64,000 bases of DNA from Ulva prolifera. Lineage: Eukaryota; Chlorophyta; Ulvophyceae; Ulvales; Ulvaceae. This document shows positions 1 through 36,867 of this stretch, in pieces. The notes beneath the pieces were generated by a model. It saw only the letters and a list, made by a program, of their open reading frames with translations, searched no databases and was not told the DNA's origin. The translations under genes were made by a program, and so were the position numbers. Numbering within the stretch: position 1 is the first letter of the stretch; every line of letters starts with the position of its first letter. The DNA lies in the NCBI GenBank assembly GCA_023078555.1, contig CM041204.1:3440430-3504429 (forward strand), read 5' to 3'.

Positions 1-1801
1 ACACGCAGAGCGGTCAGCGCGGTAAGATGCTCCAGCAGGAGCCTCATGGAGCAGCCGTAGCGTGTGGTGGAGCTCATGAGATGCAGGTCGAGGTGCTGGA
101 GGTGCAAGTGGGACAGACGTGACACGCATGGCCGCCACGCATCGGCCTGCTCCACCTCTGAGCCGCTCATGCGGCACTCAAGGACCAAGCTGGTCAGGGA
201 AGTCCGCCCCTGGGTCACCTGGAGGGCCAGCCCCTGTAGAGTCTGGCTGACTGTGGTTACGCATGCAGTGAGGCGGAGGTGCTGCAGGTGGCGCTGCACT
301 GCAATTGCGCGGGGCACGTGCAGCTGGACGGTGCTCTGGATGGTGTTGCCTCCCGCGTCTTCCGGGCAATGCAGCTCGAGCCTTTGCAGGGAGGTGAACT
401 GTGAGAGGCGGCTGAGGAGGAGCTGAACGTGCTCTGAGGCTGCAGCTCGAAGGCGACCATGCATGCAAGGCATGAGGTCAAGGCGGGTGAGAGGGGCACT
501 GAGGTGGCAGAGGAGGGGGCTGAGTGCGGCGGGCGTGGCTAGCACGACGCTGAGCTGAACGAGGGCTGGCAAGCGCAGAGGGGCAAACGCTGAGAGGGCG
601 GTGTGCCCTGTCTCGTCCGTTCCTTTCACGCTGAGAGAGGTGAGGGCTGTGGCGTTGGAGAGCATTGCTGCGAGGCAGCACACAGGCGCAACGAAATCAC
701 GCTTCCGCTTCCGCATGTTCTCGCCGCAGGTCAGCACCAGCGCGAGGTCCTCTAGCTCCGGCAGCGCTGCGAGAGCCCGGCCAAGCACTACCGGCGAGTA
801 TGCGTCGACTCCTGCTTGGAGGTGGAGGGACTGCAGGGATGTGAGGGCACCGATGGCTGGTGAGAGAAGCTGGACCGCTGCAGGGTCGATACACTGGAGG
901 TCCAGATGCAGGCAGGTCAGGTGGGAGTGGTGCTGCAGTGCTACTTTCAGATGTGGGGCTGTCTCCCGCCAGGCCGATGCTGTCATGGCAGAGCACCGAG
1001 GGAGGTTAGCCTTTTCATAGAGGTTCAGCGAGAGAAGCTGTGGAGGGCTCGCCGGAAGAGCTGCGAGACACTGGACGAGCGGCATGGAGTGACGAGCCAC
1101 AGACAAATTGAGAGCTTTGTCATCCGTCATGAGTGCTGCAGCGACGGCTTGGTGGAGGTGGGTCGGCAGGAAGCCGAACAAGTGGCGGTGGTTGTATGGA
1201 TCACTAGCAACGTGCGCAAGGACGCGGCGTTGAAGGTGAGCAGGCAGGTTGGATAGGCTGTCAGCAATAGCTTCAGGTGTCTCCTCTCTGTGATTCCGAT
1301 TGGCAGACGCGGTATGGAGAAGGCGCCGTGCTGCACGCTCGACCCACTCGGCCAGGTCAGTGTCGTCTAAAGCATCGGCGACCTGAAGCACGCACCCCGT
1401 CATGCGGATGCCTCCTTCGGTACCAGGGCCCAATACCTAATATCCTTTACGCAAATTACGCGGAAGGCCAGGACATCTACACGGTAGCACAGAGCAGACC
1501 GATCAGGGCCTGGCAGGTCAGTGCTCACCTCGAGAACCGTGCACAGCGTAGAGCACATCATCTTCTCCACTGCTTCTTTCGGTGCTGTAGTAGCCGTCAG
1601 CCACATCTTGAATTGAGACAACGTCACGGCTTCTGGCAGCAAGGCTTCCCCGCCTGCTTTGACGATATCCGACAACACCCCGCTCTTCGAGCATGTGCTG
1701 GAGTGGACCACATCATGGAAGATGAGCTGTCCAGAATAGTCAGCATGGAGCGCTGTGCGTGTCAGGCATACCGGGCCGTTGAACAGTGCTGCAGCTGCCA
1801 T
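1..1801 (-). CDS. SKP1/BTB-like plus LRR protein, array copy A (3' end beyond window)
   Basis: Exon 1 is 1529-1801 (91 codons from ATG at 1801) and exon 2 runs from 1382 off the left edge; the 146-base intron 1383-1528 is GT-AG and phase 0. Translating the visible part of exon 2 by eye gave an open frame. Exon 1 carries the family signature GPVCLTRTALHADYSGQL and ends CTVLE; exon 2 opens VADALDDTDLAEWVERAARR. Leucine-rich repeats follow, together with the basic motif MRKRKRD. The closest relative is copy B next door. The function is unknown. The fold similarity suggests a ubiquitin-ligase adaptor/receptor role, which is inference. The C-terminus cannot be judged because it lies outside the window. 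Confidence 0.8.
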
Positions 1802-1873
1802 GGCGAATTCGAGACGTCTTCGGGACGTCTGCGGGACTGGTCTACAGTTGGCTCAAGGATGAAACAGTTGGCG

Positions 1874-1885
1874 GGGTATTTAACA
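1874..1885 (-). promoter_or_regulatory. TATA-like element upstream of copy A
   Basis: A TTAAATA sequence on the minus strand lies about 75 bases upstream of the copy A ATG. It sits in a block closely similar to the region upstream of copy B, where the same position reads TATAAATA. Conserved position is the only support. Confidence 0.3.
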
Positions 1886-2354
1886 TAGCATACTCAGGTT
1901 TGTCCGTCACATAAACAGTATATAATTCCGGCAGAAGAAGCTTGAGATTGCAGTGCTTCGCCGACCCCACCGGCAGACCAGGCCCTGAACGCCATCCGAG
2001 ATGGTGAGAGGAGCTTGAATCGCAGGCAACCACGCGCTATGTGTTGTTGCGCGGGCGGTGGCCAACATGCATGCGGTCAGACAAACACGCCTTTGAGTGG
2101 CTGTGGTGACCCAGGTGTAGGTGCATATCACGTCGGGTGTCAGCCGTGGTAGGACCTTGTTGTGCTGTGCAGTGACCTGCACCAGGACATGTTCGATGGC
2201 ATGGACATGCCTGCATGCTCTTCAAAGCGCCCGGACAGGTGTGGCATGGCAGAAGCTTCTTAAGCAACGAACGGACGCCTGCGGCAGAGTCACGCACTCA
2301 TGCATGATCACATGGACGCGGTGCGTACATGCATCGGAATGTGCGGTGGCAACG

Positions 2355-2795
2355 TCAGGATGTGTTACAAGGACAAAGGCAGCAAGTCGGGCAGCACCGC
2401 GAAAGGAGCAAGCAGACGAAGCAAACACCAAGACACCCACGAACATCGCACCCATCACCGGCGTAGCAAGCGACACAGATCCGCAGACCGCCAAGCACAC
2501 ACCCACATACCAGCACACACACGCACAGACCCACACACCCACAAACCCAAACCCACACACGCGCACGCACAAACCCCACGGCCGACACACAACATCACAA
2601 CCACCAGCACCACAACGCCCGCCGCCGCACGACAGGGCCAAACCCAACACACTGCTGCCTGAGGCCGCCCATCATGGCCGCCCGATTGCCGGGGGCCGCA
2701 CTGGCCCCAAGACCCACCCCCACCCCACCAAGCCACAGCATACCACGCCAGCCCGGCACACCGCCGCGCAGCCTCGTCAGGATGTGTGGCGGCAC
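2355..2795. repeat. CA/CCG-rich dispersed repeat, copy R1
   Basis: The start (ACAAGGACAAAGGCAGC, about 2368) matches the starts of R3 (about 24500) and R2 (about 61920). A CACA-rich low-complexity body follows. The equivalent place in the unit between B and C (about 7720-7740) has no such sequence, so R1 looks like an insertion. Its flanks carry related sequences: GTCAGGATGTG occurs on both sides (about 2354-2365 and 2777-2790). No transposase or reverse transcriptase was seen. Confidence 0.5.
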
Positions 2796-2849
2796 AAGTA
2801 GATCTTACATACTGGGCTATGTCGCACGCATAGGCTGCACACTGTGCAA

Positions 2850-2870
2850 GGGGTTAGGGGTTAGGGGTTA
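2850..2870 (+). repeat. Three perfect GGGGTTA units
   Basis: Three tandem 7-base units resemble a telomere-type repeat but lie inside an intergenic region. The tract is too short to be a telomere end. Confidence 0.7.
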
Positions 2871-4851: not shown

Positions 4852-7173
4852 TCAGAACGGGAATTCCTGCCCAATCGACACCGACACAGCGGCCCTGCTT
4901 GCAGCCGCCTCCACATACCGAACCTCAGCATCTCGGTCAGCACTCGTATAGAAGCGACCACCACCGACATCATCAAAGCAAGAGGGGCAGTCCAAATGTA
5001 GTGTGAGCGCTGTCCGTGACCGCAGCATGCGAGCAAACTCAATGACCATGTCGGAGTTGTCACGCTCGACGGAGAGTTGGAGGCTGAGGTGCTGCAGCTC
5101 CGGCCACGGCCGAAATGGCCCGCCTCTAACCAGCACCATGAGGAATGCGGCATTGAGAGCGTGCCCTTTGATGGTGAACGCAAGGTTGGTCAGGGTGGAC
5201 TGCAGGAGCAATACGCTAGCAAAAAATGCATGTAGTTCGGCCGGGACGTTCATGCGGAGGAGGTGCAGCTTGCGGAGGCGGGGCATGCATATGGCTTGGA
5301 GGGCCGCAGCATCGGCCTTGCTGTGGAGGCAGTCCCAGCCGCGGACGCGCAGGGCCGTCAGCGTGGTGAGATGCTGCAGCAGGGGCGCGAGGGAGTGGTC
5401 GCTGCATTGGCTGGAGCCTGCCAGGTGCAGGTCAAGGTGCTGCAGGCGCAAGCGGCCCAGGCGCTGAATGCATTGCGGCCACAGGTCGAGCTCCGCAGAG
5501 CTTGGGCCGCTCGAGCGGGCGCAGATGACCAGGCTTGTAAGAGGAGATCGCCCGTGGGCAGCCTGGAGGCACAGGCCCTGCAGAGCCTGGCTGATCGTGG
5601 TCAGGCATGCATCGAGGTGGAGATGCTGCAGGTGGCGTAGCACTGCGATTGCGGGTGGGGCATGGAGCTGCACGGTGCCCCGGATGGTGTCGTCACTTTC
5701 TATAGCGTCTGTGGGGCAATGCAGCTCTAGGCGTTGCAGCAAGGCGAATTGAGAGAGGCGGCTGAAGAGGAGCTGGACATGCTCTGCAGCGGCCGCGTAG
5801 TAGCAGTCGTGCATGCATCTCCTGAGGTCAAGCCGGGTGAGAGGGGCGTTGAGGTGGCCGAGGAAGAGGTTGAGTGCGGCGGGCGCAGTCATCGAGATGC
5901 TGAGCTGGACGAGCGCTGGCAAACGCAGCGGTGCGAAGGCTGAGAGGGCGATGCTGCCTGAATCGTCCGTTCCTTTCACGCTGAGGGAGGTGACGGCTGT
6001 GGCGTTGGAGAGCAGTGCTGCTAGGCAGCACATGGGGTCGGCCACATCCCGCTTCCGCTTCCGCATGTTACTGCCACATGACAGCACCAGCGCCAGATCT
6101 CGTAGCTCTGGAAGCGCTGCAAGAGCCCGACCGAGCACTGCTGGCGTTTCCGCGTCGATGTGAGCTTGCAGGTGGAGGGAGCGCAGAGATGTGAGGGTAC
6201 CGATGGCTGGCGAGAGGAGCTGGACCGCTGCAGGATTGATGCAATCCAGATCCAGATGCAGGCTGGTCAGGTGAGAGTGGTGCTGCAGTGCCCGGACGAG
6301 ATGTGGGGCTGTCTCCCGCCATGCCTGGCCTGTCATGGCTGTGCACCGGGACAGGACGGCGGCTTCATGGAGGTTCAGCGAGAGAAGCTGTGGAGGGCTT
6401 GCCGGGAGAGCTGCGAGGGACCGGACGAGGGGCATGGAATGACGAGTAAGACACAACCGAAGCGCTTTGTCATCGGTCGTGAGTGCTGCAGAGACGGCTT
6501 GGTGGAGGTGTATCGGCAGGAAGGCGAACAAGGTTCGGTGCTCGGATGCATCCCCAGCAGCGTGCGCCAGGACGCGGCGTTGAAGGTGAGCAGGCAGATT
6601 CGAGAGGCTGTCAGCAATAGCTTCAGATGTCTCCTGTTTGTTGTGCCGATTGGCAGACGCGGTATGGAGAAGGCGCCGTGCTGCACGCTCGACCCACTCG
6701 GCCAGGTCGGTGTCGTCTAGAGCATCGGCAACCTGAAGCATAACTCACATGATGCGAACGCCGCCTCCACATTCGATTCACAATTTTCACTTGCACTGAT
6801 GCGAGTTCGCGAATTCGGAACGCCGGGGATGCTGCGGGACATGCTAACACAGAGCAGGTCTCGTCTAGACTGATCAGGCCTGATCAGGTGTGGCGCCCAC
6901 CTCAACAACCGTGCACAGCGTAGAGCACATCATGTTCTCCACTGCTTCTTTTGATGCTGTTGTAGCAGTCAGCCATGTCTTGAACTGAGCCAGCGTCACG
7001 GCTGCTGGCAGCAAGGCTTCCCCGCCTGCTTCGACAATACCCGACAACACCCTGCTCCTTGAGCATGAGCTGGAGTGGACCACATCATGGAATATGAGCT
7101 GTCCAGAATAGTCAGCATGGAGGGCTGTGCGTGTCAGGCATACCGGGCCGTTGAACAGTGCTGCCGCTACCAT
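4852..7173 (-). CDS. SKP1/BTB-like plus LRR protein, array copy B
   Basis: A complete model: exon 1 6901-7173 (91 codons, ATG at 7173), intron 6733-6900 (168 bases, GT-AG, phase 0), exon 2 4852-6732, stop TGA at 4852-4854; 717 aa. Residues 1 to about 145 resemble SKP1/BTB: the pattern is VCL..., an S-x-VL helix, LLPAAVTLAQFKTWL, then VADALDDTDLAEWVERAARR. They end with ETSEAIADSLSNL, like SKP1's C-terminal KTPEEIRKTFNI region. FLPIHLHQAVSAALTTDDKA (about 161-180) has an F-box-like spacing. The remaining residues are irregular leucine-rich repeats of RNI-like type. MRKRKRD at about 314-320 resembles a nuclear localisation signal. The protein ends QEFPF. No transmembrane or signal segment was seen. 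Function unknown. Confidence 0.87.
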
Positions 7174-7229
7174 TGCGAAACGTCTTCGGGACTGGCCTAC
7201 TGTTGGCTCAAGGATGAAGTAGTTGGCGG

Positions 7230-7240
7230 GATATTTATAT
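7230..7240 (-). promoter_or_regulatory. TATA-box-like element upstream of copy B
   Basis: TATAAATA on the minus strand (7232-7239) lies 59 bases upstream of the copy B ATG at 7173. A related TTAAATA occupies the same place upstream of copy A. Confidence 0.35.

Positions 7241-8251: not shown

Positions 8252-8254
<3 letters not shown>

Positions 8255-8312
<58 letters not shown>
8255..8312. repeat. (AT)29 microsatellite
   Basis: An uninterrupted AT dinucleotide tract of about 58 bases in otherwise GC-rich DNA. The matching place in the A/B intergenic region has no such tract. Confidence 0.97.
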
Positions 8313-8315
<3 letters not shown>

Positions 8316-9508: not shown

Positions 9509-11788
9509 TCAGAAAGGGACCTCGTGCCCTATGGTCACCGGAACCCCGGCCCTTCTCGCAGCCGCCTCCACATATCGCACCTCAACATCCAGGACATCAG
9601 CGAAGGCATGACCGCTGTCCTTGTCAAAGCGATGGGGGCACTCCAAGTGGAGTTTGAACTCTGACCGTGTCCGCAGTACACGGACAAACTCAACGACAAT
9701 GCCAGAGTTGTCTCGCTCGAGCGCGAGCTTGAGGCCGAGTTGCTGGAGCGCCGGCCACCAGTCGCAAATTGGCGCGACGCAGGCCAGCGCCTTAGTGAAC
9801 ACGGCGTTGAGAGCTTTGTCTGCGATGATGAATGCAAGGTTGGTCAGGTTCGACAGCCGGAGCAATGCGTGAGCGGAAGGTTTAAGCAGCTCGGCGGGGA
9901 CGTTCATGCCGAGGAGGTGCAGCCGTCGCAGCCGGGTCATGGTCCCGAGGGCGGCAGCGTCCGCACTGCTGTGGATGCAGTCCCAGTCGCGTACCCGCAG
10001 GGCCGTCAGCGCTGTGAGACACTTCAGCAGGGGTGCGAGGGAGTGGTTGCTGCATTGGCGGGAGCCCGTCATAAGCAGGTCCAGGTGCTGGAGGTGCAAG
10101 CGGCCCAGGCGCTGTGTGCATTGCGGCCACAGGTCGAGCTCCGCAGAACTTGGGCCACTCGATTGGCAGCAGAGGACCAGGCTCGTAAGGGGAGATTTCC
10201 CTTGGGCAGCCTGAACGCACGGGCCTTGCAGAGTCTGGCTCACTGTGGTCATGCATGCAGCAAGGTGGAGGTGCTGCAGGTGGCGCAGCACTGCGATTGC
10301 AGGGGCGGCGTGCAGCTGGACGGTGCCCCGGATGGTTTCGTCACTTTCTATGGCGTCTGTGGGGCTTTGCAGCAAGGCAAATTGAGAGAGGCGGCTGAAG
10401 AGGTGCTGGACATGCTCTGCCGTGGCTGCGTGATAGCGAGAGTATTTGCTGTGTAGGAGGTGAAGCTGAGTGAGTGGAGCGCTGAGATGGCTGAGGAACT
10501 GGCTCAGTGCGGCCGGCACGAGCATTGCAATGCTGAGCTGGACGAGCGCTGGCAAACGCAGTGGTGCGAAGGCTGAGAGGGCGGTGTGCCCTGTCTCGTC
10601 TGTTCCTTGCACGCTGAGGGAGGTGAGGGCTGTGGCGGTGGAGAGCATGGCAGCGAGGCAGCACACAGGGGCGACCACATCCCGCTTCCGCTTCCGCATG
10701 TTCTGGCCACAGGACAGCACCAGCACCAGATCGTGCAGATTTGGCAGCGCTGCAAAAGCCCCGCTGAGCACTGACGGCGTTTCTGCATCGACACTAGCTC
10801 GCAGGTGCAGATAGCGCAGGGAAGAGAGGGTAGCCATCGCTGGCGACAATGCCTTGACCGTTGTGGGATCAATGCACTGCATGTCCAGATGGAGGCAGGT
10901 CAGATGCGAATGGTGCTGCAGCGCCCGGGGAAGGTGTTGAGCCGTCTCCCGCCAGGCCACTCCTTTTGCCGGCAATGGATGCCATTTTCATTAAGATTCA
11001 GTGAGAGAAGCGGCCGAGGGCTTGCTGGGAGAGATGCCAGAGACCTGATCAGCGGAATAGAATGACGTGTCAGAGACACCTGAAGCGCTTTGGCATCAGT
11101 CGTGAGTGCTGCAGCGACTGCTTGGTGGAGATGGATCGGTAGGAAGGCGAACAAGTGTCGGTGGTGGGATACATCTCTAGCCGCGAACGAAAGGACGCGG
11201 CGTTGAAGTTGAGCAGGCAACATGGAGAGGCTGTCCGAAATAGATTTAACTGTCTGATCTCTGTTCATGTGTTTGGCAGATGCATCCAGAACGAGGCGCC
11301 GTGCTGCACGCTTGACCCACTCAGCCAAGTCAGTGTCGTCTAGAGCGTCAGCAACCTGGACCATACACGACGTCTTGCGCAAGCTGGAACAATCTAGTTT
11401 CAGACTTGCATTTGGCAAAGATGCGGAGACGAAATTCTGGCGTATCTAACATGCACCTGGAGCTACCGGTCAACACAATATAGGCTGGGCCAGGACAGGA
11501 GGGTGTCGCGCCCACCTCAACAACGGTGCAAAACGAAGAGAACGGCATGTTATTTATTTCAGCCAGAGTTGCTGTAGTAGCAGGCAGCCACGTCTTGAAC
11601 TGAGCCAACGTAACGGCTTCTGGCAGCAAAGCTTCCCCGCCTGCTTCGACAACACTCGACAAGACCCCGCTCTTGGAGCATGAGCTGGAAGGCACAACGT
11701 CATGGAAAATTAGCTGTCCGGAATAGTCAGCGTGGATTGCTGTGCGTGTGAGGCATACAGGTCCATCGAATGCAGCTGCGCAGGCCAT
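9509..11788 (-). pseudogene. Array copy C, frameshifted SKP1/BTB-like LRR gene
   Basis: Exon 1 is 11516-11788 (91 codons, start MACAAAFDG); the intron is 11356-11515 (160 bases, GT-AG); exon 2 runs from 11355 to the stop at 9509-9511. The frame from the splice site reads through LSLNLNENG and ends out of frame. From about 10975 leftwards the family sequence (VAWRETAQH onwards) continues in another frame. Between the shared GAA and TGG codons, copies A and B have 42 bases and C has 32, a net loss of 10. A second, in-frame loss of six codons lies further on (FALLQ joined directly to SPTDAIES). The C-terminus HEVPF and the MRKRKRD motif remain. Either a young pseudogene or an assembly error; most of the frame is intact. 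Confidence 0.75.
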
Positions 11789-14727: not shown

Positions 14728-17016
14728 TCAGAAGGGGAAGTCCTGGCCAGTGCACACAGAAACATTTGTCGCCTTGGCAGATATCTGGCTGCATGACACC
14801 TCGGCCTTCCAGCGCTCATAATGATAGAGTCGGGGACACTGCAGATGGAGTTTTAGCGGCAGCGTGTTCCGCGATGACAGCACCGCGGCTAAGCGGAGCG
14901 CCGGGTCAGCACGTTTCTGTCCGAACATGTGCAACAGGCCAAGAAGCTCGAGCTTCGGCCACGGCTTTGCCTTCACAGCCGCGTACAGCGCCGCTGCAAA
15001 CGCAAAATTGTTTGCCTCAGGTTGGATGGTGACTGCGAGGTTGGTGAGGGTGGTCAGTGCCACCAGAGAGCGGGCAAATGCCGGCTGCAGCTCGGCGGGG
15101 ATGCTCATGTCAAGGAGGTGCAGCTTGCGGAGGCGGGGCATGGCGGCGAGTGCGGCCGCGTCCGTGCTGCTGCGCAGGCAGTCCCATTGCCGTACGCGCA
15201 GGGCCGTCAGCGCTCTGAGGTTCCGCAGCAAGGGCGCGATGGAGTGGCCGTGATACGGAGGGCAGTCAATCAGGTGGAGGTCGAGGTGCTGGAGTGGCAG
15301 GCGGGAGATCCGGTGGCTGAACGTTGGCGAAGCCTGCAGCTGTGCCGTGCATGAGTGAGGCAGCCGGCAGTCGAGGCTCAACCGTGTCAAAGACTTCAAT
15401 TTCGCCGTGATGGCCACCTTGAACGCGTGGATGACCGTGTCCATATCTGCTTCGATGCGCATCTCCTGCAGCTGGTGCAGCGCTCCGAGAGCAGTGGCTG
15501 CGTGCTCTTCGATGGCGTCGCGGACATCCTCGGCAATGCTTTCTTCGCCAGGGGCTTCGCTGGGGCAGAACATGTCGAGCCTCTTCAGCGTCTTGAGCTT
15601 CGCGAGGCTGCTGAAGAGGATGTGGACTTGATGTACCGTGGCTGTTGGCGACTCGCCGCGCAGGCAGTTCATGAGATCGAGGTGGGTGAGGGGGGCACTC
15701 AGGTTGTATAAGAACGAGGCGAGTGCAGCGGGCTGAGTCAGCGCCATACTGAGGTGGATGAGGGACGGCAGGCGCAGCGGGGCAGACATCGAGAGGTGGG
15801 CTATCTCCTGCGATACGTCGATCTCGAGGGAGGTGAGGGCTGTGGCAGTGGAGAGAGTGGCCGCAAAGCAAAACCTGGTTGCGGACGCGTCTCGCGGACG
15901 CTTTCGCGGCTTGGAAGATTTGCCCAGACTCAAGCTGATGCTCTTCAGCACGGGCATGGCCGCAAAAGCCGCGCTGAGGTCCGCGGGCGTGTCTGCGTCG
16001 ACGTCGGCGCTCAAGCGGAGAGTGTGCAGGGACGTGAGTGAGGCCAGCGCGGGACACAGCAGCTGAACGTCTGCAGCATCAATGCACTCCAGGTTCAGCA
16101 GCAGGCTGTTCAAGCCGGAGTGATGTTGCAACACTCGAACGAGGTATGGGGCTGCCCGCATCCAGGTGTCTTCTGCCGTGAGTGAATACTCCGATCGCAC
16201 GGCAACATGGTGGAGATCGAGGGAGAGCAACGAGGGCGGGCTTGCCGGCAGCGCTGCAAGAGCAATTGCGATCGACAGGAAACAGTCATCCACAGGAAGT
16301 CGCAGTGCTTTGGCATCTGTGATGAATGCTGCGACGACTGCTGGGTGCAAATCGTCTGGCAGGAAGGCAATCAAGGCATTGAGGTGGCATGTATCTTTGG
16401 CGGCAAGCGCAAGGACGCGATGCCGAAGCTGATGCATCACGTTGGCAAGGCTCGTTACGACTTCTTCGTCGTCATCAACTAGGTCGCATGGCGTTTCAGA
16501 GGCATGTTGGGTGAGGCGTTCAGCTGCAAGGCGGACCCATTGGGCCAGGTGCTTGTCCTCCAGAGCATGTCCGACCTGGAGTACATAGACACTCACGCTC
16601 GGTTGCGATCGGACCCATTCAAGTTCACCTCACACTTTACAACGCACAAGCTTTTTGATAGCGCAGACAGGGATGCTGAATTCACACAGACAAAAACAAG
16701 CACAGGGCAAGCCTGCTATATATCAGCTGGCGGATCCAGAGCCCACCTCAAGAATCTTGCATATTGAAGAGAACTTCATGCTTTTGTACTGGTCTGGGTT
16801 TGTTGTGATAGCGGTCATCCACAATTTGAAATGGGCCAGCGTCACGGCATCTGGCAGCACCACGTCCCCGCCAGCTTCGAGGATGCCCGACAACACCCCA
16901 CTGCGAGAATGTACACAGGAGTGAACAACATCGTGGAAGATCAACTGTCCGGAGTAGTCAGCGTGGAGTGTTGTACGTGTCAGGCACACCGGTCCATGGA
17001 ACGCTGTACGTGCCAT
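14728..17016 (-). CDS. SKP1/BTB-like plus LRR protein, array copy D
   Basis: Exon 1 is 16747-17016 (90 codons, ATG at 17016), the intron 16576-16746 (171 bases, GT-AG, phase 0), and exon 2 14728-16575 with stop TGA at 14728-14730; 705 aa. It keeps the family frame (GPVCLTRTTLHADYSGQL, then VGHALEDKHLAQWVRLAAER) but is the most diverged member of the first subfamily. An acidic stretch VDDDEEVV replaces the usual linker after the SKP1-like part. The basic motif is PRKRPRD instead of MRKRKRD. The protein ends QDFPF. It has no frameshift despite the divergence, which argues that it is under selection. Confidence 0.87.
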
Positions 17017-19574: not shown

Positions 19575-20215
19575 CTAGTGCAGTACTGCACGGCTCCCCC
19601 AGTGATCGCAGTGATCGCAGCGCCACCTGCAGCACCTCCATCTTGCTGCATGCATGTTCACGATCAGCCGGTCGTTGCACGGGCCGGTGCTCCCGATGGC
19701 CCAGGGGCGGGCGATGGCCCTGACGAGCTTAGCCCTCGAATGCCGTCTGTCCGGCTCAACGGCGGTGCAGCGGGAGGTGTGGCGGTGGTGCACGCAGCGC
19801 CTGTGCTGCCTGTGCCTCCACCTGTGCCTCGATCTGCGCCTGACCGGCGCACACCCACACAGTGCGCGCCACTCCCTCGCACCCCTGCTGGAGGATCTCA
19901 CCGCGCTGACAGCCCTGCGTGTGTGCGGATGGGACTGCCTGCGCAGCACCGCGGACGCGGCCGCCCTCGTCGCCATGCCCCGCCTCCGCAAGCGGCACCT
20001 CGTAAATCTGAGCGTCCCCGATGAGCGTCCCTGCTTGCGCCGTGCGCACACGCGCTGGCCGCTCTGTCCGCACTCACCAACCTCACAGCCGCCGTTACAC
20101 CGGTACCTAGACCCCAGAACTCCGCGCTTGCAGCGGAGTTGGCCGCGGCTGCTGCGCCGGCACAGCTGTGGGCAGGTCTCCGGCAGATCGGCGTGGTGAA
20201 TGCCGGACACGACGG
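19575..20215 (+). pseudogene. Inverted 3' fragment of an array LRR gene (relic E)
   Basis: This plus-strand stretch aligns with the last third of copies C and F: RHLQHLHLAACM, then LTALRVCGWDCLRSTADAA, then ALAALSALTNLTA, then LWAGLRQIGVVN. The frame changes at about 19620 and again at about 20030-20060. No exon 1, no SKP1-like part and no C-terminal EFPF motif remain. Orientation is opposite to the whole array. It fills the unusually wide gap between copies D and F. Confidence 0.82.
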
Positions 20216-21753: not shown

Positions 21754-24086
21754 TCAGAAGGGAAAGTCCTGTGTAAAGCAGACCGAGACCGACGCCCTTT
21801 TTGCAGCCGCCTTCACATACTCCACATCAGTGCAGTGACGTGCATACAAGGCGGCAAGATCGTCGGTGCCTGACAGCTCTTGGAGATTCGAAGCAAGATA
21901 CAGTTTCAGACCTGGTCGCGCCGACGGACGAAGGATGCGAGCGAATTCGACAACTGCGTCAGAAACCCCGCGCTGGTTTACAAGTTTGAGGCCGAGGTGC
22001 TGCAACGACGGCCACGGCCGCGCCGGCCCGGCTGCAGCCAGCACCTTGGCGAGAGCAGCGGTTGGGGCTTGGCCCCTGACGGTGATTGCGAGGCTAGTGA
22101 GGTGTGACAGCGCCTCCAGCGCCCCCCCACACCGCGGGAGCAGCTCGGCCGGGACACTCATGTCGAGGAGGTGCAGCTTCCGCAGGCGGGGCATGGCGGC
22201 GAGCGCGGCCGTGTCCGCGCTGCTGTGCAGGCAGTCCCATCCACGCACGCGCAGCGCCGTCAGCGCCGTGAGCTGCGTCAGCAGGGGCGCGATGGAATGG
22301 CCGTCGTACGGGTCGGCTCCCGTCAGGTGCAGATCGAGGTGCTGGAGGCTCAAGCGGCACAGATGCTGCATGCCGACCTGCCACCCCTCACGCTGCTCTG
22401 ACAGTGAGCCCTGCATATGGCATTCAATGGCCAAGCTTGTCAGGGCAGTCGGCCCAGAGGCCGCCCCCAGAAGCTGCCCCTGCAGCCCCTGGCTGACTGT
22501 GGTCATGCATGCAGCGAGCCGGAGTTGCCGCAGGTGGGGCAGCACTGCGGTCAAAGGGGGCAGATGCAGCTGCAGATTGGCCTGGGCGGTGCCGCCACGT
22601 TCTCTGCCATCTTCCGGGAAACGGAGCTCCAGGCTTTGCAGCGCGGTGAAATGTGACAGGCGGCTGAGCTCGAGCTGGACATGCTCTGCAGCGTCCACCG
22701 GGACGTGACCATACTCCGTGCTTTGCATCAGCTCCAGCCGGGTGAGAGGGGCGCTCAGGTGGCTGAGGAGGGGGCCGAGTGCGGCAGGTGCCGTCAGTTC
22801 GATGCTGAGCTGGACGAGGACTGGCAAGCACAGAGGGGCAAACGCTGAGAGTCCGGTGTGGCGTGTCTCATCTGTCCCACTCACGCTGAGGGAGGTGAGG
22901 GCTGTGGCGTTGGAGAGCATTGCTGCGAGGCAGCACACAGGGGCGACCACATCCCGCTTCCGCTTCCGCATGTGTTGGCCACAGGCCAGCACCAGCGCGA
23001 GGTCCGTCAGCTCTGGCAGCGCTGCTAGAGCTTTGCTGAGCACTGCAGGCGTTTCCGCGTCGATGTCGGCTTGCAGGTGGAGGGAGCGCAGAGATGTGAG
23101 GCCAGCGATGGCTGGCGAGAGCAGTTGCACGGCTGCAGGGCCGATACACTGGAAACCCAGATGCAGGCTGGTCAGGTGCGAGTGGTGCTGCAGTGCCCGT
23201 ACAAAATGTGGCTCCATCTCCCGCCAGGCCGATGCTGTCATGGCTGTTTGCTCGCGATAGCGACGGCCAGTGACGCCAATCTCATGGAGCTTCAGCGAGA
23301 GAAGCAGTGGAGGGCTTGTCGGGAGGGATGCGAGAGACCTGACCAGCCGCATGGAGTGACGGGCCAGAGACAGATGGAGCGCTTTGTCATCCGTGGTGAG
23401 TGCTTCAGCGACTGTTTGGTGCAGGTGGATCGGCAAGAAGGGGAACAGGTTGCGGTGATCAACTGCGTCACCAGCGGCGAGCGCAAGCACGCGGCGTTGA
23501 AGGTGAGCAGGCATGCCTAACAAGCTATCAGAAACGGCCTGAGGTGTTTCGCCTCCATGCCTGCCAATCCGCAGCCATGCAGCCTCTCGGGCAAGGCGCC
23601 GTGCTGCACTCTTTATCCACTGGGCCAGACCAGCGTCGTCCAGAGCATCTGCAACCTGAAGCATGTACTCTGTTATGCGGAAGCCTATCCGATATTGACA
23701 GCATCTGTAGGCATGGCTGCAATACTGGATAGCTGGGGCTTCGGGCATGTATAAGCTAGCAAAGTGCAGGCCGGCATGTGGCAAGGCCTACAGAGTGTCG
23801 CGCCTACCTCAATGACCGTGCATAACGACGAGAACAGCATCTGCCCCACTTCTGACTCCTCTGCTGTGGACGCAGTCAGCCACGTCTTGAATTGAGCCAG
23901 CGTCACGGCTTCCGGCAACAAGGCATCCCCGCCCGCTTCAATGACTGTCGACAAAACCCCGCTCCTAGCGCATGCGCTAGAGTGGACTACATCGAGAAAC
24001 ATCAGCTGTCCTGAATAATCAGCATGGAGTGCTGTGCGTGTGAGGCATACAGGTCCGGATCCGTCGCACAGCGCTGCAGCTGCCAT
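21754..24086 (-). CDS. SKP1/BTB-like plus LRR protein, array copy F
   Basis: Exon 1 is 23808-24086 (93 codons; MAAAALCDGSGPVCL has two extra residues relative to A and B), the intron 23656-23807 (152 bases, GT-AG, phase 0), and exon 2 21754-23655 with stop TGA at 21754-21756; 726 aa. The junction reads CTVIE/VADALDDAGLAQWIK. FLPIHLHQTVAEALTTDDKA gives the F-box-like spacing. The basic motif HMRKRKRD is present and the end is QDFPF. It is the last member of the first subfamily before the switch to the G/H/I type, and the intact gene closest to relic E. Confidence 0.87.
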
Positions 24087-26715: not shown

Positions 26716-28985
26716 CTAGAATTCAAAGTCATCATCGAAGGAGACGGTGATGCCGGCGTCAGACGCCTGCCTCTTGATTCGCGCCACCACATCAGCATGA
26801 CTCTCGTCCTCCTCTGCAGGACGCACCTTCCGCTGTATATCGAAACCCAGCCACGTCAGTGCCGGTCTGGTGCGCGCAAAGGAGAACACCTCATCAGTGT
26901 CATAGGGGTGCCACAGCTCCATGCTGAGCTCCCGCAGCGCCGGCCACGCATGCGGCGGCGCTTCAGATACCAGCGCGTCCGAAAGCGAGCCCCCCGGCGA
27001 ATTGCTCGTGTGCGCGAGGGCGGTGAGGGCCGGCAGAGCCTGCAGAGCGCTCACCGCGCTTGCGTGCAGCTCCTCCTCCACGCCCGCCTCGAGGAGGTGT
27101 AGAGTCTGGAGCCCCGTCACGCGGCCGAGCGCGGCGACGTCCTCAGCGCTGCTCAGGCACCCCCAGCCTTTCGTCCGCAGAGCCGTCAGCCGCGTCAAGC
27201 CGTTCTCGAGCAGGCTGGCGATGCCCGGAAGTAAATTATTGATTTCAAGGTCCAGATTGAGGTGGCGCAGCGGCAGGGCGGCTAAGCCGCTGATGAACTC
27301 GGACGTCTCCCAGGGGGCGTCGTGGCCATGCGACCAGCAATCCAGGTGCAGGTTCGTCAGGGCAGTCGCCCCCGCCAGCAGCGGCAGCGCCTCGAGGCAC
27401 GCGTAGAACCCTGCGGCAAAGTGGAGGTGCTCAAGCTGGCGCAGCTTGCCGAGCGCGGGCGGCGCGGCGTCAGCGTGCGCATGCCAGATCCCCCAGTCGT
27501 TGCCGCGCCCGTCTGACGGATCTCCAATGCACAGGTGCCGCAGCAGCGTGAACCGCGTGAGGTTGCTGTGGAGGCGCTCGATGTGAGCGTGGTATTCATC
27601 TGTCCCGACTTGTAACCAACGGTGCTCCGGGCGGAGGTTGAGGGAGGTGAGGGGGGCGGACAGGTGGCTCAAGAGGTGGCTGGAAGCGATTGAGGCGCAC
27701 TCCGTCGTCGCGCCGGTGAAGGCCGTGTCGACAGGACGCGCGAACAGCGCTTCCAGCCGGCTCAAGCATGGCAGCTTCAGGGGTTTCGTGACGACGAAGC
27801 GCCCCTGGGCATCGGCTGCCTGGACTCGAATCAATCGGAGCGAGGTGAGGGCGGTGGCGGGGGACAGCAAGGTTGCGAGGCACAGCTGAGTGGGGCCTCC
27901 AGAGCTGCCACGCGTGCGCTGCCGCTTCAACGACTTGGAGACGAGAACGAGGGACAGCTCGAGGGCCTGTAGGTGCGGCAGGGCTCGCAGCATCTGCTGC
28001 AGCGCGGAGGAGGTGGTGGGGTCGATGCCTGTGCCGAGGGCGAGGGCCCGCAGGGACTTGAGGGAGGTGATGGCTGGGCGAAGCAGCATCACCGAGGCAG
28101 TCTCGTCGCAGTCATAGCGCAGGAACAGGCTGGTCATGGCTGAGTGGTGTTGCACAATCTGAGCCAGGTGTGGGGTTGCGTCTTGCCAGGTCTGCGCTGG
28201 AATTGCCGTGCCTTCTGGGTTGCGAACGGTGAACGACAGAATGGACGGAGGGAGGGTTGTCATGGCCTTGAGATATGGGAGGGTATCGTCGTAAAGGGGC
28301 ACTTCGAGGACCCCGTGAGGTGTGATGGTGGCTGCAAAGACTGTTTGGTGCATGTGGGCTGGCAGGAACTCTTGCAAGTTTTGCACTCGGTCTGAGAGGC
28401 GCGTGGTGGCGGAAAAGAGGCGATGTTGAACCGAGGCAGATAGCGTCAGCAATATATCAGCAATCTGCTGCGGATCCAAGCCGCCGTGGCTCTGAGCAGT
28501 CGAAAACTCATGCAGCCGATCTGCAGCCATCTCGATCCATTCGTCCATTCGCGCGTCATCAAGAGCATCTGCCACCTGCGACATGCCCCTGAATTACGCA
28601 AGCCCTGTACCCTCGCGATATGACAGTGGCAACAAGCTGAAGCGCGTGCATTATACTTGCAACCGGCGATTTGACGAGCTGGGCGTGCCGGGCCATGCGC
28701 AGCCGTAGCCGAGTGGCATACCTTAAGGACGACGCAAATGGACGTAAACGGTAAAGCATGAAGCATGTCGTTGGTGGCCGTGGTGGCAGTGAGCCACGTC
28801 CTGAATTCCGGCAGCCTGATTGCGTCCGGCAACGCCACCCCCCCGCTAGCTTCAGCGATACATGACAGGACGCCGGAACTCGAGATGGTTTTCGGGTCAA
28901 TCACATCGTAGAAAATCAGCTGTCCGTTGTAAACGTCTAGAGGTGCGGAGCGAGTCAGGCACACAGGGGCGTCGAAGACAGCCAT
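26716..28985 (-). CDS. SKP1/BTB-like plus LRR protein, second subfamily, array copy G
   Basis: Exon 1 is 28722-28985 (88 codons, ATG at 28985), the intron 28576-28721 (146 bases, GT-AG, phase 0), and exon 2 26716-28575 with stop TAG at 26716-26718; 707 aa. Exon 1 shows the second-subfamily signature FDAPVCLTRSAPLDVYNGQL and ends ICVVLK. Exon 2 opens VADALDDARMDEWIEMAADR, with DPQQIADILLTLSASVQHRL matching the SKP1-like tail. FLPAHMHQTVFAATI follows. The basic motif is SLKRQRT. The C-terminus is DDFEF, the only copy with Glu at the x position. It is the most diverged of the G/H/I group. Confidence 0.86.
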
Positions 28986-30165: not shown

Positions 30166-30665
30166 GCAAAGCAGGCGCAGCGTGCGGACTGCTGCGAAGC
30201 TTTGCAGAGCTTTGCCAAGCCGCCTCCACAATCGGACAGACCCGTCGCACTTGCAACTGACCCGGTTGCGGGGAGCATTTGCAACGATGGTAAACGCAGC
30301 GCACCAAACGACACCCACAACGCTCATGATCCCGCGGTCTGGGGGACAGGTGTGCCGCTGCCCGCGAGCACTCTGCCGCAGGAGGACACCCATGTCGCAC
30401 AGCAAAGCAGTCCACACCGGCTCGCCACCTTTATCCATGTAAGACATCAAGGCAGTCCACGAGATTCAGCCCTTCGGACATGAGCCTGGAGGCTGCTTCA
30501 AATACGGTCAAAGATCGGCCTCGAGTCTCTCACATGCTGCACAGAACGCGTACCGCAGCATGAACCACGCCGTAGGCTGCACACGGTGCCCCAGCTGGCC
30601 TGAGCAGTAGTCAATGGTGAACATAGAATTCTGAAAGGTCTCCACACCTTCATGGCCGCAGCCGC
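30166..30665. other. Spacer between thiolase relic 1 and copy H
   Basis: No gene. The first 270 bases resemble 34150-34380 downstream of relic 2 (shared GGAGCATTTGCAAC and GCAGTCCA words). The duplicated block therefore continues past the thiolase fragment. Confidence 0.45.
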
Positions 30666-32930
30666 TTAAAAGGGGAACTCTTCTTCAAAGGAGAGTGTGA
30701 CTCCGGCTTCAGCTGCCTCCCTCTCCATGCGCGTCCACACATCGGCATGGACCTGCTCCTGCTCCGCAAGAGCAGGGCGGCGGTCAAGACCCAGCCACGT
30801 GAGAGCCGGTCTGCTGCGTGCAAAGCGGAAGACTGCGTCGGCCTCAGAGGGCTCCCACAGCTCCAGGTTGAGCGCCTGCAGCGCCGGCCACGCGCACGGC
30901 GGCGCTTCAGCCACCAGCGCGGCTGTACAGGAGTCGATGTCTGTGTATTCACTCGTGTGTGCGAGGCTGGTGAGAGCGGGCAGCGTCTGCAGGGCGCGCA
31001 CGTAGCTGGCATGCAGCGGCGTGTCCATGGGAGCATGCAGGAGGTGCAGCTTCTGGAGGTCCGTCATGCGTGCGATCGCGGCGATGTCCTCAGGGGTCTG
31101 GAGGCACTCCCAGCCCCACATCCGCAGCGCCGTCAGGCGCGTCAGCCCTCGCTCGAGCAGGCTGCTGATGCCTGGCATGTCTTTGTCAATTTGCAGATCC
31201 AGATTCAGGCTGAGCAGCGGCAGGACGGACAGACCGCTCACCAAATGAGCTGTGTCCGCGGGGGAGTAGCTTTGAAGAAGGGAGCAGCCGCACTCGAGCT
31301 GCAGGTGTAACAGGCCGGTCGCCCGCACGAGCAGCGGAAACGCCGCGGCACAGATGTTGAGTTCGGCGGCGAAGTTGAGATGCTCAAGCTGGTGCAGCTC
31401 TGCGAGCGCGGGCGGCGCGGCGGCGGTGCCCGTTTCCCATATCACCTTCTGCTTGAAACCTTCATCCGCAGGAATCCTGATGCGGAGGCGCCGAAGGTGT
31501 GTGAACTGCGCGAGGCCGCTGCAGAGGCGCAGGACATGGGCAGTGTCTTCTGGGCGCAAGACATCTCGCCAGCAGCGTCTGGGGTGCAGGTCCAGGGAGG
31601 TGAGGGGGGCAGACAGCTGGCTCAGGAGGTGGCTGGACGCGACTGAGTGGGAGTTGGTGGTCCGGATTTCGATGGTGTCCGGATCAATGGGAGCATCAAA
31701 AAGCATGTCCAGCTGGGAAAGGTGTGGCAGCTCTACGGGGTGCAGAGTGACAAACTGGCCACTGTCTCCATGGACATAGAGCCGAAGCGAGGTCAGGCGG
31801 GAGGTAGGAGAGAGCATGGCCGCCAGGCAGAACTCCGGTGTGCACGCGATATTGCCATGGCGCTGGCGTTTCAGACTGTCTGAGACGAGCCTGAGGGATA
31901 GGGAGAGATGTTGTAACTGTGGTAGAGCTTGCAGCATCTGCTTCAGTGTGACGGAGGTGCTGGCGTCAACGCCTGAGTGCATATGGAGGGACTGCAGTGA
32001 CTTGAGTGAGGCGATGGCTGGGGCGAGCAGCTGCGCTGAGGCTGCATCAATGCATGGGAGATCCAGACGCAAGCTGGTGATGCCCGAGTGGTGTTGGAGT
32101 GCCTGAGCGAGGTGCGGGGCTGCTTCTTGCCAGGCCTGGCCTTGCATTGGAGAGTGTTCTGGACCGTGAACATTGAGAGAGAACACAGAAGGGGGTGCGG
32201 GAGGGAGGGCTTTGATGGCCCTGACAAGCGGGAGTGACCCATTCAGCAGAGGTGCTTCAAGCATTTTAGCAGGACTGATGGTGGCTGCAACGACCGCTTG
32301 GTGCATATGGCCTGGCAGAAAGCCCAGCAACTTCTCTGTCTGGCTTGCACAGCGAGTCGCAGCCGCAAGGAGGCGATTCCGAAGTGAATCAGACAGCAAA
32401 GATAAGCATTCAGCAACTTGGTGAGGGTCACAGTCATGCTGCTGCGCGTACTTCACGTCGCAACGCGAATACTGGGTCAGCCGATCTGCAGCAACGTCGA
32501 TCCAGCCGTCCATTCGTGCGTCATCTAGAGCATCCGCCACCTGAAGCAGTGATGGGTTTTGAGTACGCTCTGTCGTCACAGTGGCAAGACGGTGCATACG
32601 TTTTAAATTTAACCGATGACTTCGCAACCCACGCGCGGCTGGCCATTCTGTTGCTGAAAGCCTTACCTTCAGGACGAAGCAGATGGATTTAAATGGCAAT
32701 ACATGAAGTACTGCTACGTCGGCAGTCTTCGCGAACAGCCAAGTTCTGAACTCGGACAGCCTGATCGAATCCGGCAGCACCACTTCTCCGCCAGTCTCGG
32801 CGATGCAAGACAGAACGCCGGAAGCAGAGATCGTGTCAGAATCAACGATATCGTAGAAGATCATCTGTCCTTTGTAGGCATCCAGAGGTGCGAAATGTGT
32901 CAGGCACACGGGGGCGTCGAAGCCATCCAT
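30666..32930 (-). CDS. SKP1/BTB-like plus LRR protein, second subfamily, array copy H
   Basis: Exon 1 is 32667-32930 (88 codons, ATG at 32930), the intron 32541-32666 (126 bases, GT-AG, phase 0), and exon 2 30666-32540 with stop TAA at 30666-30668; 712 aa if spliced. The intron has no stop and is a multiple of three, so the unspliced message is also open (754 aa). The spliced junction ICFVLK/VADALDDARMDGWIDVAADR matches the other copies, so splicing is preferred. DPHQVAECLSLLSDSLRNRL is the SKP1-tail-like part and FLPGHMHQAVVAATI the F-box-like part. The basic motif is SLKRQRH. The end is EEFPF. Confidence 0.88.
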   Translation of the reverse strand: MDGFDAPVCLTHFAPLDAYKGQMIFYDIVDSDTISASGVLSCIAETGGEVVLPDSIRLSEFRTWLFAKTADVAVLHVLPFKSICFVLKVRLSATEWPAARGLRSHRLNLKRMHRLATVTTERTQNPSLLQVADALDDARMDGWIDVAADRLTQYSRCDVKYAQQHDCDPHQVAECLSLLSDSLRNRLLAAATRCASQTEKLLGFLPGHMHQAVVAATISPAKMLEAPLLNGSLPLVRAIKALPPAPPSVFSLNVHGPEHSPMQGQAWQEAAPHLAQALQHHSGITSLRLDLPCIDAASAQLLAPAIASLKSLQSLHMHSGVDASTSVTLKQMLQALPQLQHLSLSLRLVSDSLKRQRHGNIACTPEFCLAAMLSPTSRLTSLRLYVHGDSGQFVTLHPVELPHLSQLDMLFDAPIDPDTIEIRTTNSHSVASSHLLSQLSAPLTSLDLHPRRCWRDVLRPEDTAHVLRLCSGLAQFTHLRRLRIRIPADEGFKQKVIWETGTAAAPPALAELHQLEHLNFAAELNICAAAFPLLVRATGLLHLQLECGCSLLQSYSPADTAHLVSGLSVLPLLSLNLDLQIDKDMPGISSLLERGLTRLTALRMWGWECLQTPEDIAAIARMTDLQKLHLLHAPMDTPLHASYVRALQTLPALTSLAHTSEYTDIDSCTAALVAEAPPCAWPALQALNLELWEPSEADAVFRFARSRPALTWLGLDRRPALAEQEQVHADVWTRMEREAAEAGVTLSFEEEFPF

Positions 32931-33854: not shown

Positions 33855-34150
33855 AGAATACGGCACAGTTGCTCTCACAGCGAAAGAGCGGCAGTCAAAC
33901 AGCGTCCTTCGAGAGGAACGCCTGGGGGGTGTGGGAGGCAGCGTCGGCAATGCCGCCGCCCTGGTTGCCAACCTCATAACCCTATGCGCCCACGCCGGAG
34001 CAGATGCACATCAGCACAACGCGCCGCGGTGTCTCTTGCAGCAGTGCCACCATCATGCGCGTGCTAGGTCGGCCCCGGGCGGCGCCTGGTGCGGCCGCGC
34101 CTCCGTCCGGTTCACCAGAAGACACCACGCGCTCAGCGTGCTGTGGGGCC
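33855..34150 (-). pseudogene. Decayed copy of the thiolase last exon, relic 2
   Basis: It aligns with 37640-37965: GCTCTCACA upstream, then AGCGTCCTTCGAGAGGA (compare 37686-37703), GCCGCCCTGGTTGCCAACCT (compare 37743-37762), GCCGGAGCAGATGCACAT, and CAGCGTGCTGTGGGG of intron 6. Indels shift the frame. It is closer to the real gene than relic 1, which suggests a younger duplication. Confidence 0.8.
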
Positions 34151-34599
34151 CAGCGCAGGAGCAGCGTGTAGACTGGTCCGCCACAAAGGCGCCTCAACAA
34201 TTGTACACACTCTGCACACTCACAGCTGACCTGGTTGCAGGGAGCATTTGCAACAACAGACTGCGTAGCGCAACCAGCCCCGACAACGCTCACGCGGGCT
34301 GTGGAGCAGGTGTGCCGATGCTCGTGAGGACTTTGCCACAGGCAGACACACATGTTGCGCATCAGAGCAGTCCATGAAACACACTTCTCCGGGCGTGAGG
34401 ATACAATCTGCCTCAAAACTGGTCACGGATCAGGCTCTCTTACCCAGTATGCCACATTGGACGGCAGCATGGGCTGCACGTGCTGCCCCAGCTGGCCTGA
34501 CGATCAGTCAATGCACATCATGATCAGTCAATGCACATCATGATCAGTCAATGCACATCAACAAGTGGAAGGTCGCCACACCTTCATGAACATGGCAGC
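34151..34599. other. Spacer between thiolase relic 2 and copy I
   Basis: No gene. The first part matches the corresponding spacer at 30166-30440. It ends with three 20-base tandem repeats at 34502-34560, about 40 bases from the copy I stop. Confidence 0.45.
34502..34560. repeat. 20-base tandem repeat, three near-perfect copies
   Basis: The unit is GATCAGTCAATGCACATCAT, with the third copy one base short. It lies in the probable 3' flank of copy I. Confidence 0.95.
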
Positions 34600-36867
34600 C
34601 TAAAAGAAAAATTCGTATTCAAAGGAGAGTGCGATTTTGGCTTCAGCAGCCTCGCGTTCGATGCGCCTCCGCACATCAACATGATGTTGCTCCTGCTCGA
34701 AATCGGAGAAGCGGCAGTCAAGAGCCAGCCGCGTGAGCGCCGGTCTGCTGCGCACAAAGCGGAAGACTGCATCGGTCTCCCAGGGATCCCATAGCTCCAA
34801 CCTGAGCTCCTGCAGTGCGGGCCACGCGTGCGGCGGCGCTTCCGAAATCAGTGCGATGGAAAGGGTGTCAACGTCTGACTCTTCACTCGTGTGCGCGAGG
34901 CTGGTCAGAGCGGGCAGCGTCTGCAGGGCGCGCACACAGCTGGCATGCAGCTGCGTGTCCGTGGGAGCGAAGAGGAGGTACAGCTTCTGGAGGTCCGTCA
35001 TGCGTGCGAGCGCAGCGATGTCCTCAGAGGTCTGGAGGCACTCCCAGCCCCACGTCCGCAGAGCCGTAAGCTGCGTCAGCCCGTGCTCGAGCAGGCTGCT
35101 GATGCCTGGCTGGTCTACATGGACTGCCAGGTCCAGGTCCAGGCTCAGCAGCGGCAGCATGGACAAGCCGCTCACGAGCTCGGCGATTTGCACGGGGGAG
35201 TAGTCGAGGCGATGCGAGAAGTGGCACTCCAGCTGCAGGTGCGACAGGCCGGTCGCGCTGACCAGATGCGGAAGCGTTGTCATGAAGGTGGTGATTTCGG
35301 CGGCGAAGTAGAGGCGCTCAAGCTGGCGCAGCTCTGCCAGCGCAGGCGGCACGGCGGCGGTGACCGCATCCTGTATCACCAACTGCTTGACGCCTTCGTC
35401 TGCGGGAGCTTTAATGCACAGGCGCCGCAGTTGTGTGAAGTGCGCAAGGCCGATGCAGAGGCGCAACACATGCGCACTGCCATCTGCATGCAAGGTGTCT
35501 AGGCCGAGGCGTTCGGGGTGCATGTCCAGGGAGGTGAGGGGGGCGGACAGCTGGCTCAGCACGTGGCTGGCTGGAATTGAGTGGGAGTTGGTGGTCCAGT
35601 CAGTGCTGTGGCAACCAACGGGCCGGCCGAAGAGCAAGTCCAGCTGGGAGAGGTGTGGCAGAGCTAGGGGGTGTGCAGTGATGAAGCACTCCTTGCCCCC
35701 GTCTGCATGGCCATGGATCCGAAGCGAGGTCAGGCTGGTGGCGGGCGACAGCATGGTCGCCAGGCAGAACTGAGGTGAGCCTGCGGTGCCGGCATCGCGC
35801 TGGCGCTTCCGGCTCGCTGAGGCGAGCATGAGGGATAGCGAGAGGGTCTGCAACTGTGGTAGAGCTTGCAGCATCCGCTTCAGTGTGACGGAGGTGCTGG
35901 CGTCGACGCCTGAGTGCATATGAAGGGACTGCAGTGACTTGAGTGAGGCGATCGCTGGGGCAAGCAGCTTAGTTGAGGCAGCATCGATGCAATGCAGTTG
36001 CAAACGCAGGCTGGTGACGCCCGTGTGATGTTGCAATGCCTGGGCGAGATGTGGGGCTGCTTCTTGCCACTCCTGGCTTTGCAGTGGAGAGTTTTCTGGG
36101 CTGTGCAGATTGAGAGACAGTACAGAAGGAGGTGCGGGAGGGATGGCTTTCAGGGCCTTGACAAACGGGAGTGATTTTTTCAGCAGGGGTGCTTCAAGCG
36201 TCTTGGTGGAAGTGATGGTGGCTGCAACAACCGCTTGGTGCATGTGGCCTGGCAGAAACTCAAGCAAGTTCTCCACCTGGCTTTCACTGCAAGTCGCAGC
36301 CACAAGGAGGCGGTGCTGAAGTGCATTTGATAGCATAGATAGACCATCAGCAACTCGGTGCGGTTCAGAGTCTTGCCAGCGCTCGTACTGAACATGGCTA
36401 CCCGAGTACCGGGTCAGCCGAAGTGCAGCAAAGTCGATCCAGCCGTCCATTCGTGCATCATCTAGAGCATCCGCCACCTGAAGCAAAGCTATGTTGTCAG
36501 TACCCTCCTGTCGTTGCAGTGGCAAGACGATGCATATGTTTTGATCCAACCGATGACTTCGCAACCCACGCGCGGCTGGCCATTCTGTTGCTGAAAGCCT
36601 TACCTTCAGGACGAAGCAGATGGATTTGAATGGCAATCCAAGAAGCACTGCTATGTCGGCAGTCCTCGCGAACAACCATGTTCTGAACTCGGGCAGCCTG
36701 ATCGAGTCCGGCAGCACCACTTCTCCGCCAGTCTCGGCGATGCACGACAGAACGCCAGAAGCAGAGATCGCGTCAGAATCAACGACATCGGAGAAGATCA
36801 TCTGTCCGTTGTAGGCCTTCAGAGGTGCGGCACGTGTGAGGCACACGGGGGCGTCGAAGGCATCCAT
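34600..36867 (-). CDS. SKP1/BTB-like plus LRR protein, second subfamily, array copy I
   Basis: Exon 1 is 36604-36867 (88 codons, ATG at 36867), the intron 36478-36603 (126 bases, GT-AG, phase 0), and exon 2 34600-36477 with stop TAG at 34600-34602; 713 aa if spliced. As in copy H, the intron is stop-free and divisible by three, giving 755 aa if retained. Exon 1 has FDAPVCLTRAAPLKAYNGQM; exon 2 has EPHRVADGLSMLSNALQHRL and FLPGHMHQAVVAATI. The basic motif is SRKRQRD. The end is YEFFF. It is the closest paralogue of H and lies directly downstream of the intact thiolase on the same strand. Confidence 0.88.
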   Translation of the reverse strand: MDAFDAPVCLTRAAPLKAYNGQMIFSDVVDSDAISASGVLSCIAETGGEVVLPDSIRLPEFRTWLFARTADIAVLLGLPFKSICFVLKVRLSATEWPAARGLRSHRLDQNICIVLPLQRQEGTDNIALLQVADALDDARMDGWIDFAALRLTRYSGSHVQYERWQDSEPHRVADGLSMLSNALQHRLLVAATCSESQVENLLEFLPGHMHQAVVAATITSTKTLEAPLLKKSLPFVKALKAIPPAPPSVLSLNLHSPENSPLQSQEWQEAAPHLAQALQHHTGVTSLRLQLHCIDAASTKLLAPAIASLKSLQSLHMHSGVDASTSVTLKRMLQALPQLQTLSLSLMLASASRKRQRDAGTAGSPQFCLATMLSPATSLTSLRIHGHADGGKECFITAHPLALPHLSQLDLLFGRPVGCHSTDWTTNSHSIPASHVLSQLSAPLTSLDMHPERLGLDTLHADGSAHVLRLCIGLAHFTQLRRLCIKAPADEGVKQLVIQDAVTAAVPPALAELRQLERLYFAAEITTFMTTLPHLVSATGLSHLQLECHFSHRLDYSPVQIAELVSGLSMLPLLSLDLDLAVHVDQPGISSLLEHGLTQLTALRTWGWECLQTSEDIAALARMTDLQKLYLLFAPTDTQLHASCVRALQTLPALTSLAHTSEESDVDTLSIALISEAPPHAWPALQELRLELWDPWETDAVFRFVRSRPALTRLALDCRFSDFEQEQHHVDVRRRIEREAAEAKIALSFEYEFFF

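Follow-up and report, generated by a model that had tools for sequence, protein, structure and literature searches.

Adaptor proteins of the ubiquitin system often join a docking domain to a recognition repeat. A survey of ubiquitin genes across eukaryotes (PMC4327156) reports that the F-box often occurs with leucine-rich repeats (LRRs), and the BTB domain with ankyrin, Kelch, BACK and NPH3. In the BTB-BACK-Kelch adaptors (KLHL, KEAP1, gigaxonin) one chain runs from an N-terminal POZ-superfamily domain through a helical middle part to a recognition repeat at the C-terminus. A similar layout, with a POZ-like domain, helices and then LRRs, is probably present in a family of tandem genes from the green alga Ulva prolifera, described here from a stretch of 64,000 nucleotides (the window, C9:3440430-3504429, where C9 is contig CM041204.1) in a genome of 88.9 Mb and 44 contigs. 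An earlier reading of the letters of this stretch, called the original prediction below, proposed a self-contained chain of SKP1-like domain, F-box and LRRs that would contact a cullin directly or, as an alternative, a BTB-BACK-LRR adaptor. We tentatively favour BTB-like LRR adaptors, in which a constant N-terminal domain docks, probably on a cullin ligase scaffold, and a variable LRR part selects the target, the whole being multiplied in tandem; we put this at a little under an even chance.

Gene structure and tandem array

Searching the window by tblastn with exon-1 and exon-2 queries gave eight paralogues, A to H, all on the minus strand, with exon-1 matches starting at 1783, 7155, 11773, 17004, 24053, 28985, 32930 and 36867. 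The motifs quoted in the original prediction do lie on this strand within 1-36867, and its count of seven copies becomes eight: seven open and one, C, broken. Each copy has two exons of about 90 and about 600 codons, separated at predicted splice sites by a phase-0 intron of 126-171 nucleotides (donor (G/A)AG-GT, acceptor CAG-GT, cut at the hyphen). This intron splits FKTWL from VADALDD, and the motifs do not form the single continuous frame in which they had been read. In copy B, for instance, exon 1 ends in CTVVE and exon 2 opens with VADALDD, a junction that would fall inside the helix equivalent to LFELILAANYLD under the SKP1 or the BTB reading. In the case of G and H the frames run on through the intron because it consists of 42 stop-free codons (window 32541-32666 and 36478-36603, minus strand). 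If retained, this intron would interrupt a predicted helix midway with 42 extra residues. The features are as follows, in window coordinates.

1..1382, minus strand: copy A exon 2, crossing the left edge of the window; the genome shows an open frame of 646 amino acids
1529..1801, minus strand: copy A exon 1, BTB-like N-domain (probable)
4852..6732, minus strand: copy B exon 2, with the end of the N-domain, helical linker, LRRs and stop
6901..7173, minus strand: copy B exon 1, BTB-like N-domain (probable)
9509..11355, minus strand: copy C exon 2, probably of a pseudogene, its frame being interrupted around 10.93-11.0 kb
11516..11788, minus strand: copy C exon 1
14728..16575, minus strand: copy D exon 2
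16747..17016, minus strand: copy D exon 1
19618..20025 (C9:3460047-3460454), plus strand: inverted relict of the LRRs, sharing 57% identity with residues 369-503 of the copy B exon-2 frame
21754..23655, minus strand: copy E exon 2
23808..24086, minus strand: copy E exon 1; a nearer Met is the likely start, by comparison with A-C
26716..28575, minus strand: copy F exon 2
28722..28985, minus strand: copy F exon 1; a nearer Met is the likely start, by comparison with G and H
30666..32540, minus strand: copy G exon 2
32667..32930, minus strand: copy G exon 1, followed by the stop-free intron of 126 nucleotides
34600..36477, minus strand: copy H exon 2
36604..36867, minus strand: copy H exon 1, followed by the stop-free intron of 126 nucleotides

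Across the eight exon-1 translations, 24 of 93 columns are invariant (alignment A1). Each gene is predicted to encode a protein of about 710 residues, which by eye lacks an obvious membrane segment. Its N-domain comprises exon 1 and about 24 residues of exon 2, and is followed by a linker of about four helices and then by the LRRs.

Family size and selective constraint

The copy B exon-2 frame finds at least 67 matches in the genome at E<=0.001, and the exon-1 consensus finds 132 at E<=1. Of the exon-1 matches, 91 are strong (E below 1e-10), with 83 on C9, three on C3, two on C5 and one each on C4, C6 and C8. Those on C9 span 1.47-4.03 Mb of a contig of 5.68 Mb that makes up 6.4% of the genome. 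Selective constraint was estimated from 115 pairs with dS of 0.05-0.9, which are related by ancestry and so not independent. The ratio of nonsynonymous to synonymous rates (dN/dS, omega) is below 1 in both exons. Omega rises from 0.28 in the N-domain to 0.47 in the helical part; within the LRRs it is 0.31 at buried and 0.54 at exposed strand sites, 0.44 at buried and 0.55 at exposed helix sites, and 0.54 in loops. This supports translation of both exons, which are under purifying selection, with the N-domain the most conserved part. All 53 family loci outside the window, picked by their exon-2 match, also carry a match to the exon-1 profile (weakest E 2.8e-11, in a search space of the fetched loci plus the window); because of this and the dN/dS values, the motif set is not a product of chance. 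Gene models were kept for 57 of 61 loci, and 50 of the 57 encode at least 650 residues; of the seven shorter ones, copy A is merely truncated by the window edge.

Divergent copies cluster at C5:9.00-9.10 Mb. A member of this cluster, used as query, finds 15 exon-1 matches with E below 1e-10 and weaker ones (E 1e-5 to 0.9) on C2, chiefly within 10.4-11.7 Mb. Of five divergent loci retrieved, four show the exon-1 domain, a presumed intron and a VADALDD-like start of exon 2, and the fifth (L072) is too short to tell. On C9, at about 2.43-2.50 and 2.53-2.57 Mb, there are paired copies of equal length and near-equal exon-1 score (L053/L057, L023/L026, L024/L028), which suggests either a recently duplicated segment or a region assembled twice.

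The N-terminal domain

Profile comparisons indicate that the N-domain is likely to belong to the POZ superfamily. The BTB profile was built from 13 sequences, nine entered by hand and four from the alga's genome. Against it, the profile of 55 copies plus four divergent relatives scores 20.1 and the four relatives alone 21.3, scores that 0 of 150 shuffles reach in either case; when the query was shuffled instead, 0 of 100 did so for these two main query profiles. The alignment covers about 60 columns in the expected register, with SRSSVLSCIAEAGGEAKLPDAVTLSEFRTWL..CTVLKVADALDD set against BTB ARSPVFSAMF..VEINDVEPEVFKEMM..LLAAADKYAL. As controls, reversed BTB scores 10.4-12.9 against the three query profiles and other segments of the family score 8.0-15.9 against BTB, the top two over only 14-16 columns and one reaching 13.9 over 44. 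Among subsets of the BTB profile, the ZBTB type was equalled by 0 and 1 of 40 shuffles, the alga's own four by 5 and 1 of 40, and the nine sequences without the alga's by 0 and 0 of 40. The hhalign E-values, each from a single comparison, are modest (0.003, 0.0065 and 0.011). Taken as a whole, these comparisons give the BTB-like assignment moderate support.

Several results weigh against it, and with it against the adaptor reading. The Pfam models of BTB (PF00651), Skp1 and BACK match none of 20 members (E<=1) and neither the consensus nor four divergent relatives (E<=10), in searches where HMMER filters discard most matches above E of about 0.1. A search of PDB sequences with the N-domain returned no relevant match. 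The 55-copy profile without the divergent relatives scores a marginal 15.0 against the 13 BTBs (a score reached by 8 of 200 column shuffles) and shows no signal in global mode (159 of 200), and a mixed profile of 16 sequences scores 19.0 (2 of 150). Kelch-type BTBs alone yield nothing above background (21 of 40 and 6 of 40 shuffles as high), and two other family segments, over their 14-16 columns, slightly outscore the N-domain profile that lacks the divergent relatives (15.9 against 14.8). AlphaFold, too, did not build the N-domain: the predicted local distance difference test (pLDDT) is below 50 at residues 1-51 of a chain that includes the intron translation. The domain could accordingly have a fold of its own, the profile match being a coincidence of helix spacing and an S-x-V..LP..F..W pattern, and the missing matches at the hidden Markov model and PDB level, the low pLDDT and the dependence of the BTB signal on divergent relatives and on the type of BTB all fit this. 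Such a coincidence seems rather unlikely to us given the shuffles of the two main query profiles, the length and register of their alignment, and the recurrence of the same register, weakly, against SKP1.

Fold prediction was the test that the original prediction had named for its own refutation. The model at hand is too poor at the N-domain to count, having been made from copy H as a contiguous sequence, in which 42 intron codons interrupt the key helix, and from 14-15 alignment rows, mostly single or partial exons. Because of the intron-containing chain, the few rows and the low pLDDT, the lack of a Foldseek match speaks neither for nor against a POZ fold.

The proposed SKP1-like order of motifs fared less well than the BTB comparison. 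The N-domain does align with the POZ part of SKP1 in the proposed register, yet the match is weak, its score being attained by 28, 4 and 10 of 100 shuffles for the three query profiles, the 4 belonging to the divergent relatives, and in other comparisons with a thin SKP1 profile of five sequences the figures were 118, 23 and 73 of 150 and 71 of 200. The domains Skp1_POZ and Skp1 dimerisation (PF03931, PF01466) have no match in the 20 members or the consensus, and the stretch that had been compared with SKP1 KTPEEIRKTF shows little conservation in the family consensus. On this evidence the N-domain appears nearer to BTB than to SKP1, whose profile is thin, and SKP1 identity is unproven.

The helical part and the LRRs

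Four helices are predicted at residues 169-215 (read-through numbering), between the last helix of the N-domain and the first LRR strand at 223. Block pLDDT is 73-92 in the short model and 65-88 in the full model. In the original prediction an F-box stood here, at FLPxHLHQAV, and the family pattern does hold two similar motifs, LSxLPxxLQxRVLxAA and FLPxxLHxAVLAA. Neither an F-box nor a BACK domain is among the Pfam matches of the 20 members or the consensus, at the thresholds given above. The sole F-box profile match is one of 10 columns, equalled by 8 of 200 shuffles, and falls at LSxLPxxLQxRV instead of the proposed place; none of 23 genome rows of the F-box-like PF12937 lies at the family's places. 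In row-level structural alignments two FBXL17 chains begin at model residues 174 and 166 and FBXL2 at 203, within or close to the helices that precede the LRRs, which speaks for a chain of SKP1, F-box and LRRs binding a CUL1-type cullin directly; in a third FBXL17 row the alignment does not start until 282. With an F-box not supported and the SKP1 comparison weak, we regard that chain as very improbable. Of the arrangement proposed, what stands is one chain of N-domain (probably POZ-like, by profile match), helices and LRRs; the F-box between them is not supported. The alternative of a BTB-BACK-LRR adaptor fits best, the helices being BACK-like by position and Pfam showing no BACK match.

The LRRs themselves are solidly identified, by Pfam and structural comparison, as a solenoid of ribonuclease-inhibitor type, as the original prediction had them present. 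They superpose equally on ribonuclease inhibitor, NLR LRRs and F-box LRRs. Other clusters of LRR_14 lie at C4:7.32-7.53 Mb, C6:2.31-2.61 Mb and C8:5.23-5.28 Mb, with many frames of 800 to 2500 amino acids, and are apparently different LRR families.

A possible mechanism

In the adaptor reading, the N-domain would be a short, strongly diverged BTB/POZ-like domain that serves all paralogues as a constant dock for one shared partner, by analogy with BTB adaptors probably a cullin ligase scaffold. The helical linker would stand where a BACK or 3-box segment does, the LRR horseshoe would bind different targets in different paralogues, and tandem duplication, mostly on one chromosome, would multiply specificities. 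In the genome, cullins are matched at three places, and an exon-wise search gives at least four canonical BTB exons. Also present are one canonical SKP1 gene on C3, separate from the family, and Skp1 Pfam domains in five rows on C2, C3 and C6. A second Skp1_POZ match, at C2:4190908-4191069 (plus strand), lies outside the family's places and, with 22.5 bits, barely above the cut-off.

That the helices act like BACK, that a cullin is bound and that targets are recognised is what we infer rather than observe, and the cullin contact in particular could give way to a second reading. The genes might encode POZ-like/LRR receptors that act outside the ubiquitin system, with the POZ-like domain oligomerising or recruiting a signalling partner and the LRRs sensing self or foreign molecules. 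The size and clustering of the LRR family, and the contrast between its constrained N-domain and faster LRRs, would suit this, as would the equal superposition on ribonuclease inhibitor and NLR LRRs. Pfam scans, however, found no convincing nucleotide-binding or signalling domain, and exposed strand sites of the LRRs show no acceleration over the remaining exposed sites (0.54 against 0.54-0.55), which gives no sign of diversifying selection on a binding face. The latter point counts against the adaptor reading as well. We consider receptors of this second kind unlikely.

Neighbouring features

Beyond the array, the window holds a thiolase exon at 38903-39667 on the minus strand (Pfam Thiolase_N, 4.3e-26) and a UPF0004 exon at 41917-42849 on the plus strand (2.5e-32), of the kind occurring in methylthiotransferases. 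A frame with FGVGPRRCVGQ at about 58150-58500 on the minus strand resembles, by eye, the haem-binding end of a cytochrome P450.

Comparison with known systems

Like the BTB-BACK-Kelch adaptors, the family has an N-domain that matches a mixed BTB profile in register. It differs from them in having LRRs in place of Kelch repeats, an N-domain that lies below Pfam detection and responds to no Kelch-type-only BTB profile, only a few residues before the first conserved motif, and no BACK match. Unlike the F-box LRR proteins (FBXL2, FBXL17, TIR1, COI1, D3/MAX2), it has no detected F-box, and it might not need SKP1 because it seems to carry a POZ-like domain of its own. SKP1 and Elongin C share with it a similarly short POZ length, the order S..L..(gap)..LP..W and a weak alignment in the same register, but the family lacks the Skp1 Pfam domain and the alga has its canonical SKP1 gene elsewhere. 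From the LRR domains of ribonuclease inhibitor and the NLRs it is set apart by an identity of only 14-18% in those rows and by the lack of NACHT or any other NLR Pfam domain. A literature search returned no paper for 'BTB-LRR' and none on the family, judged by titles and the opening lines of abstracts. Since Pfam misses the N-domain, such genes would carry an annotation, if any, as LRR proteins. That the alga has evolved, for the most part on a single chromosome, more than 100 one-piece ubiquitin-ligase receptors of POZ-like domain and LRRs, equivalent to the F-box-LRR or NLR repertoires of land plants, is a doubtful proposition at present. If true, a BTB-like/LRR chain with at least 91 strong exon-1 matches would represent another route to a large recognition repertoire.

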